Part shown: positions 50,776 to 55,070 of the stretch, piece by piece
How the letters are laid out: each line of letters starts with the position of its first letter
How positions within the stretch are numbered: the first letter of the stretch is position 1
Origin: Paeniglutamicibacter terrestris
GTDB lineage: Bacteria > Actinomycetota > Actinomycetes > Actinomycetales > Micrococcaceae
DNA: 64,000 nucleotides
Assembly (NCBI RefSeq): GCF_012271785.1
Contig: NZ_JAAWVT010000003.1
Coordinates: forward strand, 248,001 to 312,000
Reading direction: 5' to 3'
Position numbers and translations under genes: made by a program
The notes under the pieces: model-generated
What the model was told of the DNA's origin: nothing
Database searches by the model: none
Seen by the model: the letters and a program-made list of their open reading frames with translations, nothing else

Positions 50776-52290
50776 GTGTCCACATACGTCATCGCCATTG
50801 ATCAGGGAACCACCAGCTCCCGCGCCATCGTTTTTGACCACGACGGGAAACCCGTCTCCACCGGTCAGATGGAGCACCAACAGATCTTCCCGCATGCGGG
50901 CTGGGTGGAACACGACGCTGTGGAGATCTGGAACAACGTCCGTGAGGTCATCGCCGTCGCGCTGGCCAGTGGCAACCTCACCCGCCACGACATCGCCGCC
51001 GTCGGGATCACCAACCAACGCGAAACGGCAGTGGTTTGGGACAAGCACACCGGTGTGCCCGTCTACAACGCGATTGTCTGGCAGGACACCCGTACCCAGG
51101 GCATCGTGGAGGAATTGGCGGCAGATGGGGGAGTTGACCGCTACAAGGAGCGTGTAGGCCTGCCGCTGGCACCCTACTTCTCCGGTACGAAGATCAAGTG
51201 GATCCTTGACAATGTCGACGGTGCCCGTGAGCGCGCCGAGGCCGGGGACCTGCTCTTTGGCAACACCGACACCTGGGTCACCTGGAACCTCACCGGCGGA
51301 ACCGATGGCGGAGTGCACATCACCGACGTCACCAACGCCTCACGCACCCTCTTTATGGACCTGGAAAAGTTGGAATGGGATGCCCAGATCCTTGCCGACT
51401 TCGCGGTGCCCGCGTCCATGATGCCGGCGATCAAATCCTCCTCCGAGGTCTACGGACACGTGCACTCCTCGCAACTATTGCGCGAGGTCCCGATCGCGGG
51501 GATCCTCGGTGACCAGCAGGCGGCAACCTTCGGCCAGGCGGCGTTTGACGCCGGCGAGGCGAAAAACACCTATGGCACCGGCTGCTTCTTGATCTTCAAC
51601 ACCGGCAAAGAGATCGTACGTTCGGGCAACGGGCTGCTCACCACCCTGGGTTACAAGCTCGGTGATGCGGACCCGGTGTACGCCCTGGAAGGCTCGATCG
51701 CCGTGGCAGGCTCCCTGGTGCAGTGGCTGCGCGATAACATCGGGATGATTTCCACCGCCGCGGAGGTGGAGGTGCTGGCCTCTAAGGTCCAGGACAATGG
51801 TGGGGTGTACATCGTTCCTGCCTTCTCCGGGCTTTTTGCCCCGTACTGGCGTGCCGATGCTCGTGGGGCCATCGTGGGGTTGACCCGCTATGCCAACAAG
51901 AACCACATCGCCCGCGCCGCCCTGGAATCTACCGCCTTCCAGACCCGTGAAGTGCTTGATGCTGTTAACGCCGATTCGGGGGTTCCGCTCACCGAGCTCA
52001 AGGTTGATGGTGGGATGGTGGCCAACGATGCACTGATGCAGTTCCAGGCCGATCTGCTCGGTGTCCCGGTGATCCGCCCCCAGGTCACCGAGACCACGGC
52101 CCTGGGCGCCGCCTATGCCGCGGGCCTGGCAGTGGGGTTCTGGAAGGATCTGGGAGAACTTCGCTCCAATTGGGCCGAGGACAAGCGCTGGGAACCGACC
52201 ATGGAGGATGCCGAGCGCGATCGCCAGATGCGCCTGTGGAAGAAGGCCGTGACGCGCACCTTCGACTGGGTTGATCAGGACGTGCGCTAG
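50776..52290 (+). CDS. glpK: Glycerol kinase
   Basis: Traps glycerol as glycerol 3-phosphate with ATP. The 504-residue FGGY kinase begins [19 protein letters not shown] and has [24 protein letters not shown] and [15 protein letters not shown]. Start GTG at 50776 with AAAGG 9 nt upstream; a frame from 50584 overlaps glpF and is rejected. It completes the pathway with GlpF (entry) and GlpD (oxidation). Confidence 0.97.
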
Positions 52291-52310
52291 GGCGCACTAG
52301 TGTTTCAGAT

Positions 52311-52341
52311 CCCGCGGGCGCGTCGGTGGCGCGCCCGCGGG
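52311..52341 (+). terminator. Terminator of the glp genes
   Basis: A perfect 12-bp GC-rich stem (52311-52322 and 52330-52341) with a 7-nt loop, 20 bp after the glpK stop. There is no T-run. It ends 17 bp before the leuS leader -10 box. Confidence 0.75.
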
Positions 52342-52358
52342 GCCCACCCTCGGTAAGG

Positions 52359-52364
52359 TAGAAT
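52359..52364 (+). promoter_or_regulatory. -10 element of the leuS leader transcript
   Basis: TAGAAT, a perfect TANNNT box, ends six bases before the ATG of the leader peptide, so the transcript should begin at that ATG. No clear -35 is visible; that region lies in the glpK terminator stem. Confidence 0.6.
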
Positions 52365-52370
52365 GTGGGC

Positions 52371-52397
52371 ATGAACGCAGTGCTCTTGCTAACTTAG
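52371..52397 (+). CDS. Leader peptide of leuS, MNAVLLLT
   Basis: An eight-codon frame with three consecutive leucine codons, each different (CTC, TTG, CTA), followed by ACT and TAG. It sits between a -10 box six bases upstream and a stem that starts on the last base of its stop codon, with a terminator after that. This is the layout of an amino-acid leader peptide: a ribosome slowed at Leu codons when charged tRNA-Leu is scarce would change folding downstream. It is leaderless and has no Shine-Dalgarno site. The short length limits certainty, but the Leu run ahead of leuS is unlikely to be chance. Confidence 0.7.
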   Translation: MNAVLLLT

Positions 52398-52450
52398 CCG
52401 CATGGAATGAACCCCATGCGGCCGCCCCTTGTTTGCCAAGGGGCTTTTGT
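52397..52450 (+). promoter_or_regulatory. leuS attenuator: pause stem and terminator
   Basis: Stem A pairs 52397-52405 with 52414-52422 (9 bp, GCCGCATGG). Stem B pairs 52424-52431 (GCCCCTTG) with 52437-52444 and is followed by TTTTGTGTG, so it is a rho-independent terminator inside the leuS leader, 110 nt before the gene. A stalled ribosome would mask the left arm of stem A. The alternative antiterminator pairing was not obvious by eye. Confidence 0.7.
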
Positions 52451-52553
52451 GTGTCAGGGGGTCTTTGCCGCCGATGCACTCCATGAACCCAGTCATGCAG
52501 CCACGTTCCACCACTCCATCAGGCGCAGCAACAAAAGAAGGCGAAACACGATA

Positions 52554-55070
52554 GTGAGCACCCAGCCGACCGGCACCGATACCGCTGACAACGAGTCCAC
52601 AGCAGCGGCCTACGACTTCCACACCATGGAAGCCAAGTGGGCCCCGGTGTGGGAAAAACTCGGCGTCTTCACGCCCAAGGACGATTCCAGCGCCGAACGC
52701 CGCTACGTGCTTGATATGTTCCCCTACCCCTCCGGCGACCTGCACATGGGTCACGCCGAGGCCTTCGCCATGGGGGATGTTGTAGCGCGCTACTGGCGCC
52801 AAAAGGGCTACAACGTGATGCACCCGATCGGCTGGGACTCCTTCGGTCTGCCGGCCGAAAACGCCGCCATCAAGCGCAATGCCCACCCCGCCGAGTGGAC
52901 GTACGCGAACATCGACACCCAGGCCGCCAGCTTTAAGCGCTACGCGATCTCCGCCGACTGGGAACGCCGCATCCACACCTCGGACCCCGAGTACTACCGC
53001 TGGACCCAGTGGCTGTTCACCCGCTTCTACGACAAGGGCTTGGCCTACCGCAAGAACCACCCCGTGAACTGGTGCCCGACCGACCAGACCGTGTTGGCCA
53101 ACGAGCAGGTTGTTAACGGCGCCTGCGAACGGTGCGGCACCATCGTGACCAAGAAGTCGCTGAACCAGTGGTACTTCAAGATCACCGATTACGCGGACCG
53201 CCTGCTTGATGACATGGACGAGCTGAAGGGCCACTGGCCCGAGCGCGTGCTGGCCATGCAGAAGAACTGGATCGGCCGCTCCGAAGGCGCCCACGTGGAC
53301 TTCGTCATCGAAGCCACGGACACCTTGGAAGCACACAAGACCACGGTCTTCACCACCCGCCCGGACACGCTGCACGGCGCCACCTTCTTTGTGGTGGCAG
53401 CCGATGCCGAGCTGGCCAATCAGCTGGTCACGCAGGAACACCGCGAAGCCCTCGAGGCCTACCAGGAACAGGTCAAGGCGCTTTCCGAGATCGAACGCCA
53501 GGCCACCGAACGCGAAAAGACCGGTGTCTTCACCGGCCGCTACGCCATCAACCCGCTTAACGGCGAAAAGCTGCCCGTCTGGGCCGCGGACTACGTCCTG
53601 GCCGACTACGGCACCGGAGCGATCATGGCCGTGCCCGCGCACGATCAGCGCGACCTGGACTTCGCTCGCACCTTTGACCTGCCGGTACGCGTGGTTGTTG
53701 ATACCGGCGCCGAGGATCCGGCAGAGACCGGCATTGCCACCACCGGTGAAGGTGTTTTGGTGAACTCCGGTGAGCTGAACGGCCTGCCCAAGGCCGATGG
53801 CATTTCCCGCGCCATCGACATCGTCACCGAAGCCGGCACCGGTGAGAAGTTTGTGAACTTCCGCCTGCGTGACTGGCTGCTTTCCCGCCAGCGCTTCTGG
53901 GGCACCCCGATCCCGATCATTCACTGCGCTGACTGCGGTGAGGTCCCGGTTCCCGATGACCAGCTGCCGGTGCGCCTGCCGGAGAACCTGCGCGGTGAGC
54001 AGCTGGCACCCAAGGGCACCTCCCCGCTGGCAGCCGTCGAGGAATGGGTCAACGTACCCTGCCCCAAGTGTGGTGCCCCTGCCAAGCGCGACACCGACAC
54101 CATGGACACCTTTGTCGACTCCTCCTGGTACTTCCTGCGCTTCGTTTCCCCGAACTACACCGAGGGTCCCTTTGACCCGCAGGCGGTTCGTGACTGGATG
54201 CCGGTGGGCCAGTACGTGGGCGGTGTTGAGCACGCGATTCTGCACCTGCTCTACTCGCGCTTCTTCACCAAGGTGATCTTCGATCTGGGTCTGATCGATG
54301 TGAAGGAACCCTTCAGCGCACTGCTGAACCAGGGACAGGTGCTCAACGGCGGCAAGGCCATGAGCAAGTCGCTGGGCAATGGTGTGGATCTGGGTCAGCA
54401 GCTGGATAAGTTCGGTGTTGACGCCGTGCGCCTGACTATGATCTTCGCCTCCCCGCCGGAGGACGACGTGGACTGGGCAGATGTGTCTCCGGGCGGTTCC
54501 TCCAAGTTCTTGGCCCGCGCCTGGCGCCTGGCTCAGGACGTGGCCAGCGAGGTGGGAGCGGACGTCACCACAGGGGATAAGGCACTGCGCCAGGTCACCC
54601 ACAAGGCCGTGCACGAGGCGACCGGGATGCTTGACGGTGGCAAGTTCAACGTGGTCATCGCCAAGATGATGGAGCTGGTCAACGCGACCCGCAAGAGCAT
54701 CGACTCCGGTGCAGGTGCGGCAGATCCCGCCGTACGCGAGGCCACCGAGGCCGTTGCCATCGTGCTCTCGCTCTTCGCCCCGTACACGGCCGAGGACATG
54801 TGGGCGGCACTGGGCCACGAACCGGCCGTTGCCAACGCTGGATGGCCGGCCGTTGATGAGGCCCTGTTGGTACAGGACACCGTCACCGCCGTGGTGCAGA
54901 TCAAGGGCAAGGTCCGGGCACGTCTGGAAGTTTCGGCCGACATCAGTGCCGAGGACCTAGAGGCCCTGGCACTGCAAGATGAGGCAGTGGTGCGTTACCT
55001 TGATGGTGCAGCCATCAACAAGGTGATTGTTCGTGCACCGAAACTCGTCAACGTGGTGCCGGCTTCCTAG
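52554..55070 (+). CDS. leuS: Leucyl-tRNA synthetase
   Basis: A class I synthetase of 838 residues. The HIGH motif is HMGH at 64-67 ([14 protein letters not shown]) and KMSKS is KAMSKS near 603. Between them lies the CP1 editing domain ([16 protein letters not shown]). The start is GTG at 52554, with GAAGG about 12 nt upstream; the family N-terminus begins shortly after ([14 protein letters not shown]). A longer frame from 52407 would include the attenuator and is rejected. Regulation by Leu supply through the upstream leader is likely. Confidence 0.97.

Follow-up and report, generated by a model that had tools for sequence, protein, structure and literature searches.

A putative leucine-responsive attenuator upstream of leuS in Paeniglutamicibacter terrestris and other Actinomycetes

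The trp attenuator of Escherichia coli combines leader codons for the sensed amino acid with a U-tailed terminator and a mutually exclusive antiterminator. The pyrBI leader of the same organism needs no antiterminator: a nearby ribosome directly prevents the terminator from folding. What pyrBI senses is UTP, by way of polymerase pausing, and not a charged tRNA, and it has no spacing hairpin. The pyrBI case is mentioned in PMC4824070, according to which E. coli ribosomes repress a terminator almost completely when it lies a few bp downstream of a stop codon, with relief beyond ~27–30 nt.

For leuS, the gene of leucyl-tRNA synthetase, classical attenuators were predicted in Streptomyces avermitilis and S. 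coelicolor in 2005 (PMC1262725). In 2021, the LeuL2 peptide of S. lividans TK24 (MRAVRLLLSEPR), encoded before leuS, was described as leaderless, with a hairpin and a U-run (PMC8079986). The original prediction for the locus studied here treated attenuation at leuS through a leaderless peptide as less familiar, a view that has to be given up in light of the Streptomyces predictions (PMC1262725). The ilvL leader of S. lividans and the ilvB-II leader of Corynebacterium are like the present locus in having branched-chain codons, a hairpin, P1, that overlaps the ORF, and an adjacent terminator, P2 (PMC8079986, PMC10272879); they are unlike it in that their control codons differ and that an antiterminator has been proposed there. 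Expression governed by the ilvB leader of C. ulcerans is high in minimal medium and low in rich medium (PMC10272879). Leader-peptide attenuation of leuS is, therefore, already in print, and the geometry described below is the part for which no precedent was found. A full-text search of open-licence papers, taken at the level of titles and abstract openings, returned no literature on a leuS leader of Micrococcaceae; at the same level, the open-licence literature yielded neither an actinomycete citramalate synthase leader nor an antiterminator-free geometry of this kind. The passages of PMC2965389 examined make no mention of leuS.

The window analysed here is a 64,000-nt stretch of the P. terrestris genome (contig NZ_JAAWVT010000003.1). 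All of the parts that the original prediction had placed ahead of leuS, i.e., a -10 box, an eight-codon leader ORF, a stem that starts from the stop codon, and a terminator, are confirmed in its sequence (Table 1). The codons following ATG 52371 read AAC GCA GTG CTC TTG CTA ACT TAG. The terminator arms occupy positions 52424–52431 (C) and 52437–52444 (D), and D is followed by TTTTGTGTGT. The 85-nt leader, 52371–52455, has a folding energy of -38.1 kcal/mol, which corresponds to a z of -4.75 relative to dinucleotide shuffles.

Table 1. Features of the leuS leader locus, in window coordinates
Feature	Position	Strand	Basis and remarks
-10 box TAGAAT	52359–52364	+	direct sequence reading; without a -35 match
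Leader ORF, MNAVLLLT-stop	52371–52397	+	ATG at the putative transcription start; TAG at 52395–52397; predicted leaderless
Three Leu control codons, CTC TTG CTA	52383–52391	+	last one is a rare codon
Stem 1, arm A	52397–52405	+	begins with the G of the TAG stop; folding and covariation
Stem 1, arm B	52414–52422	+	ends 1 nt before the terminator; pairs with arm A
Intrinsic terminator hairpin C:D	52424–52444	+	8 bp, loop of 5
Imperfect U-tract TTTTGTGT	52445–52452	+	sequence reading
Likely leuS ribosome-binding site AGAAGG	52536–52541	+	sequence reading
leuS, leucyl-tRNA synthetase, GTG start 52554	52554–55070	+	NCBIfam TIGR00396 leucine--tRNA ligase, 980 bits

A second candidate start of the leader, the in-frame GTG 52365 (VGMNAVLLLT), lies 5 nt after an overlapping box, TAAGGT at 52354–52359, and it was this GTG that the automatic parse of the locus took. 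ATG 52371 is preferred here because its 6-nt spacing from the box is the rule in relatives. A start of the leuS frame at ATG 52407, inside stem 1, was rejected by judgement, no ribosome-binding site being seen there. A sigma-70 scan of 52250–52600 found no two-hexamer promoter, and 52451–52553 contains no TANNNT box, hence this stretch offers no sign of another leuS promoter of that type. No Rfam match in the window reaches the gathering score; two sub-threshold matches within 52340–52560 are both on the minus strand, and covariance models assign the leuS leader neither to the T-boxes nor to any other Rfam regulatory RNA. The closest named relative found is Paeniglutamicibacter sulfureus, with 94% identity across the N-terminal 249 residues.

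Regions upstream of leuS were obtained from 110 of 120 family genomes, 80 named loci, and 69 loci of a class-wide draw, 259 in total; these collections overlap, some species being in two sets, and relatives are not independent samples. A leader was called wherever a TANNNT box was followed after 4–8 nt by an ATG or GTG ORF of at most 22 codons containing Leu, with a terminator after the last Leu codon. This recipe is matched upstream of leuS in 158 of the 259 loci, namely in 33/69 class loci, 55/80 named loci, and 70/110 family genomes, and the latter two counts bear out the expectation that Leu codons and a T-tailed hairpin would be conserved upstream of leuS in relatives. The background amounts to 2 of 516 shuffled upstream regions and, elsewhere in the window, 6 of 600 tiles; all eight of these matches lack two adjacent Leu codons. 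Leaders were called at named loci of Arthrobacter, Pseudarthrobacter, Paenarthrobacter, Sinomonas, Glutamicibacter, and Zafaria and, farther away, of Actinomadura, Nonomuraea, Streptosporangium, and Microlunatus; the named loci that do not match the recipe include those of Kocuria, Rothia, Auritidibacter, Acaricomes, and Yaniella. The uncalled loci L093 and L099 have the Leu-run ORF but no terminator at the threshold used, and the upstream region of a third (L071) is too short to judge. Judging from these calls, the element is patchy inside the family, as if it had been lost in some lineages.

Of the 158 called leaders, 127 have their start codon 6 nt after the -10 box and 28 have it 7 nt after (4–8 nt being allowed), which matches the spacing that a leaderless start requires. 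TANNNT boxes occur in 20% of the regions that separate the tail from leuS, less often than in shuffles (34%). One genome (G327) contains two leuS genes (L296 and L246), each of which is preceded by a leucine leader of its own.

Once identical leaders and eight odd parses (L165, L166, L172, L069, L175, L125, L087, and L041) are removed from the called set, 145 distinct leaders remain. Their last Leu codon is CTT in 112 cases, CTA in 23, CTC in 9, and CTG in 1. CTT or CTA is thus the last Leu codon in 135/145 leaders, as opposed to 7% of the Leu codons in leuS coding sequences; at 85 loci where a leader was called, the leuS genes use CTG for 72% of their Leu codons, CTT for 5.5%, and CTA for 1.5%, and the corresponding shares in six genes of the window are 49%, 11%, and 3.2%. 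Synonymous Leu codons replace one another at the last three positions, and the bias toward rare codons is at the last one. By these counts, the leuS leader carries control codons for the amino acid under regulation, the last Leu codon being the strongest candidate; an RNA constraint could explain part of the preference for CTT at this position.

The conservation of Leu codons stands, while the run of three that caught attention in the window is not universal: among the 125 leaders called in family genomes and at named loci, 31 have no two adjacent Leu codons (for example, MNPKRNLA, MRAILQLS, and MSALELSQPR). The leader of one relative (L061) reads MKPQ, without any Leu. Glutamicibacter-like leaders (L023, L029, L047, L048, L056, L067, L145, L148, and L149) have a single Leu codon, CTA, located one residue before the stop.

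Counted from the last Leu codon, the stop ends at 3, 6, 12, 15, 21, 24, or 30 nt, with two forms prevailing. In the first, which includes the window and accounts for 99/145 leaders, the stop is complete 6 nt past the last Leu codon; in 96 of these, arm A comes next. In the second (30/145), the stop ends 15 nt after it and the ORF typically closes with Pro-Arg-stop, because the sequence encoding this ending, CCGCGCTGA, is arm A itself; MRAVRLLLSEPR, found in seven Streptomyces-like genomes (L221–L227), is an example. In the remaining leaders, the position of the stop varies. Arm A begins 5 nt after the last Leu codon in 102/141 leaders and 4 nt after it in 19/141, much alike in both forms.

Both helices, A:B and C:D, covary. 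RNAalifold predicts exactly these two helices for alignment A1, whose 35 rows were hand-selected among 62 representatives because their loops could be aligned, a choice that favours the structure. In this alignment, one or more double changes are seen in 9 of the 15 pairs, 95.4% of the cells hold standard pairs, and the covariation score is 0.316 vs a shuffled mean of 0.135, a value as high being reached in 0/500 shuffles. The core that can be aligned shrinks to 13 pairs when all 62 representatives are used; 7 pairs are doubly changed vs 4.9 after shuffling, and there are 75 doubly changed cells vs a shuffled mean of 24, again with 0/500 as high.

A covariance model, R1, was built from the 35 rows, one of which (L002) has the window's own core and none of which comes from f22. 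It matches the window leader at 69 bits, its sole match in that genome at E up to 1, and matches Streptomyces-like genomes (f22 and g58) at 48.5–64.6 bits. At E 0.001, matches are present in 125 of 296 class genomes and in 21 of 246 genomes of a phylum draw, 8 of the 21 being outside the class. The U-tailed terminator after the leader ORF is conserved in relatives, and TTTTGTGTGTC recurs after it. The sequence that follows the terminator (52445–52455 in the window), TTTTGTGTGTC or TTTTYNTGTCC, seems to be conserved to a greater extent than a U-run alone would be.

That one covariance model finds both the window leader and the Streptomyces-like genomes points to an RNA homologous with the leuL2 type. 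Indeed, L221–L227 carry the exact S. lividans peptide, and their family matches this model. The window shares with leuL2 the same gene, a Leu-codon ORF of the leaderless type directly upstream of it (leaderless by prediction in the window), a hairpin, and a U-stretch terminator. The two differ at the end of the ORF: in the window, the TAG stop is the second codon after the Leu run, so arm A comes just after the ORF, whereas in leuL2 arm A lies inside the last ORF codons (PR-stop). Leader, -10 spacing, Leu codons, hairpin, and terminator recur together across Actinomycetes, which supports the leucine-sensing attenuation of leuS put forward in the original prediction; we consider such sensing very probable from the sequence comparisons.

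No antiterminator was evident at the window locus, and this holds beyond it: by folding and comparative tests, no competing antiterminator was found among the 145 distinct leaders, in which respect our results depart from the published classical view of the leuS attenuator. In the comparative test, the duplex energy of segment pairs was evaluated within species vs between species for 70 of the 96 TAG-form leaders and for all 45 others (in this second group, the cells for the stretch after the tail and one value for Leu codons with C were left out). Among the ORF, A, loop 1, B, C, the terminator loop, D, and the tail, strong within-species complementarity is confined to A:B and C:D. For A:B, the within- and between-species energies are -16.5 vs -11.4 kcal/mol in the first form and -19.0 vs -15.4 in the others; for C:D, they are -14.5 vs -12.8 and -14.3 vs -11.2 kcal/mol, respectively. 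Other nominally significant pairs differ by <1 kcal/mol; loop 1 with the tail has a slight excess of 0.4–0.6 kcal/mol (p 0.002 and 0.048), to which no role is assigned. In folding, the mean pairing probability of C:D is 0.93 in ribosome-free leaders and 0.96–0.97 at four ribosome positions (the three Leu codons and the stop). It falls below 0.5 in 6/145 ribosome-free leaders (8/145 with the tail) and in 1/142 with a ribosome at the stop; these few leaders may have alternative folds.

Four specific pairings were considered and rejected. Pairing of B with the terminator loop (GCGCGG with CUGUGC) is weaker within species than between species. Conservation of the pairing of B with the U-tract tail, which appears in the fold of 52406–52455, is not supported. 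Pairing of the Leu codons with D is alike within and between species, and that of loop 1 with D, suggested by analogy with ilvB-II, is not supported by within-species complementarity.

These results bear directly on a classical mechanism of the trp type, in which a stalled ribosome permits a mutually exclusive antiterminator that breaks the terminator. The leuS leader does share control codons and an intrinsic terminator with trp, and in six ribosome-free leaders C:D is not dominant. Moreover, Streptomyces leuS leaders have been described with an antiterminator and a terminator (PMC1262725), and an antiterminator has been modelled for Corynebacterium ilvB-II, in which the P1 loop engages the 3′ side of the terminator (PMC10272879). 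The exclusive antiterminator, however, is what neither folding nor comparison finds here: C:D prevails with or without a ribosome, strong within-species complementarity stops at the two helices, loop 1 has ≤6 nt in 41/140 leaders, and 10/140 have an upstream duplex whose strength equals or exceeds that of C:D. A transient kinetic structure could escape thermodynamic and comparative tests alike; on balance, we consider the classical mechanism unlikely.

The distances between codons, stop, and terminator suggest another route. Figures involving A:B refer to 141 leaders, four without a parsable A:B (L010, L157, L161, and L170) being excluded, and folded and ribosome distances refer to 142, the three shortest leaders being excluded. 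In the unfolded leader, the last Leu codon is 25–60 nt (5–95%) away from C. After folding, 5 exterior nt (4–9) separate the two, vs 7 (2–15) for shuffled spacers, and this folded distance is ≤8 nt in 94% of leaders vs 65% of shuffles. The gap from B to C is 0–2 nt in 142/142 leaders of foldable length. In 141/145 leaders, 18 nt or more separate the stop codon from C, the exceptions being three leaders that encode MAYFLG and L146, in which the stop is just 9 nt before C.

The MAYFLG leaders (L157, L161, and L170) lack A:B, and their terminator follows 4 nt after the last Leu codon. C is there at the same effective spacing as in the folded leaders.

With the ribosome footprint taken as 9 nt, a ribosome positioned at the stop leaves no part of arm A exposed in 132/141 leaders. 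Under the same assumption, the median number of free nt from the ribosome edge to the terminator is 4 with the ribosome at either of the first two Leu codons, 7 at the last one, and 10 at the stop, with overlapping ranges. The free nt at the stop exceed those at the first Leu codon in 128/142 leaders, at the middle one in 130/142, and at the last one in 90/142; a 12-nt footprint shrinks the contrast, so that the stop exceeds the middle Leu codon in 87/142. This contrast in modelled distances agrees in direction with blocking of the terminator by a stalled ribosome, though it is modest. On the E. coli scale, stop-to-terminator spacings of 18–26 nt fall in an intermediate, partly repressing range (PMC4824070); thus, a slowly terminating ribosome might also cause readthrough.

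We propose that the ribosome itself acts as the antiterminator, and that the locus is a leucine-responsive, ribosome-mediated attenuator of leuS of the leaderless leuL type known from Streptomyces. The chances of this overall reading are, in our opinion, slightly better than even. The first nucleotide transcribed would be the A of ATG 52371, and the leaderless ORF would be entered by a 70S ribosome. When charged tRNA-Leu is ample, the ribosome would reach the stop and leave, C:D would fold, and most transcripts would end near 52450. When it is short, the ribosome would stall on the Leu codons, and more leucyl-tRNA synthetase would be made. The last Leu codon, which is CTA in the window and CTT or CTA in most relatives, seems to be the essential one. 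A ribosome stalled in this manner would leave A:B able to fold, wholly or largely. Because B lies directly against the terminator and A starts ~5 nt past the last Leu codon, the fold would take out the intervening 25–60 nt and place the ribosome ~4–7 nt from the base of the terminator, hindering the hairpin. A ribosome at the stop would cover arm A, hold A:B open, and stand at least 18 nt upstream of C, leaving the terminator freer. The likeness to pyrBI lies in this proposed direct block, for which the overlapping ranges around medians of 4–7 free nt (stalled) vs 10 (stop) are to be borne in mind. Taken by itself, the proximity-blocking step is plausible at a little under even chances.

Two other roles for A:B have to be weighed. 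Hairpins of like position pause RNA polymerase in the trp and his leaders, and the tail of the leuS leader, GGNNNNNNNNTG, resembles the elemental RNA polymerase pause consensus. A:B might then be mainly a pause hairpin that synchronises ribosome and polymerase, timing alone setting the outcome; pausing alone leaves unexplained both the 4–5 nt offset from the last Leu codon and the 0–2 nt gap to the terminator, and we regard this alternative as decidedly unlikely. The constant 0–2 nt gap between B and C (142/142) would sit well with the other role, in which A:B, lying against C, keeps the terminator from the RNA polymerase exit channel until a ribosome at the stop opens A:B, as would the full coverage of arm A by a ribosome at the stop in 132/141 leaders (9-nt footprint assumed). 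Such an arrangement should give readthrough in any leader that is not being translated or that its ribosome has left, and three leaders lack A:B altogether; these points make it quite improbable. That the terminator is constitutive and insulates leuS from the preceding ORF (glycerol kinase, glpK, by reading of its sequence), which ends at 52290, just before the leader, with the short ORF arising by chance, is highly improbable, as codons, -10 spacing, and stem are conserved together with the terminator and the S. lividans leader is reported to be leaderless (PMC8079986).

Returning to an attenuator in which the ribosome takes the place of the antiterminator, similar leaders stand before other genes. 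Eighteen further matches of the model were read. Nine of these, in class genomes, precede genes whose products all have the citramalate/isopropylmalate synthase motif DTTLRDGAQ (L292–L295, L299, L300, L304, L307, and L308; L300 is named citramalate synthase by family match). Their leaders consist of Ile-rich codons, one more codon, TAG, and then a hairpin and a terminator; the last Ile codon is ATT in 8/9 and ATC in L308. Four matches are ilvB loci (L297, L298, L305, and L306, the first and last named by family match), L296 is the second leuS of its genome, and L301 and L302 are leuS-like genes from outside the class (L296 and L301 named); for L303 and L309, the sequence ends downstream before a gene. 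A search of 41 family genomes for citramalate synthase, run without a positive control, gave no match at E 1e-60.

Among 30 ilvB loci of the family (L310–L339), 23 match the model at E up to 1 and nine at ≤0.001. By eye, many of them have a run of branched-chain codons followed by (A)AGCGCG and an arm of the CACGCGC type shortly before CCCC. The ilvB locus of the P. terrestris genome itself (L330, about 1213–1315) gives a weak match (E 0.47), with the leader ORF MQIRTEVLLVIKR and a hairpin after it. A scan of ilvB upstream regions that required a TANNNT box called 2/30 loci, and the 14 nt before the ilvB leader starts are mostly without such a box. It should be noted that altering candidate regulatory codons of S. 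coelicolor ilvB had no effect (PMC1262725), which argues against simple codon sensing in that sister system and against generalising. We suggest only tentatively, at rather less than even chances, that Actinomycetota have a class of antiterminator-free attenuators common to leuS, ilvB, and citramalate synthase genes, for which the distance and antiterminator figures come from leuS leaders. In this class, a hairpin that begins ~5 nt after the last control codon and abuts the terminator would bring a stalled ribosome into contact with the terminator, the ribosome and not an alternative fold being the antiterminator.

Should this geometry prove correct, it would account for the impression that amino-acid leaders of actinobacteria are attenuators with missing components, as the abstract of PMC1262725 words it, and it would supply a simple design rule for such leaders. 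The MAYFLG leaders are natural variants useful for the study of the mechanism. For the organisms themselves, it would mean that leuS expression is a readout of tRNA-Leu charging in many soil actinomycetes.
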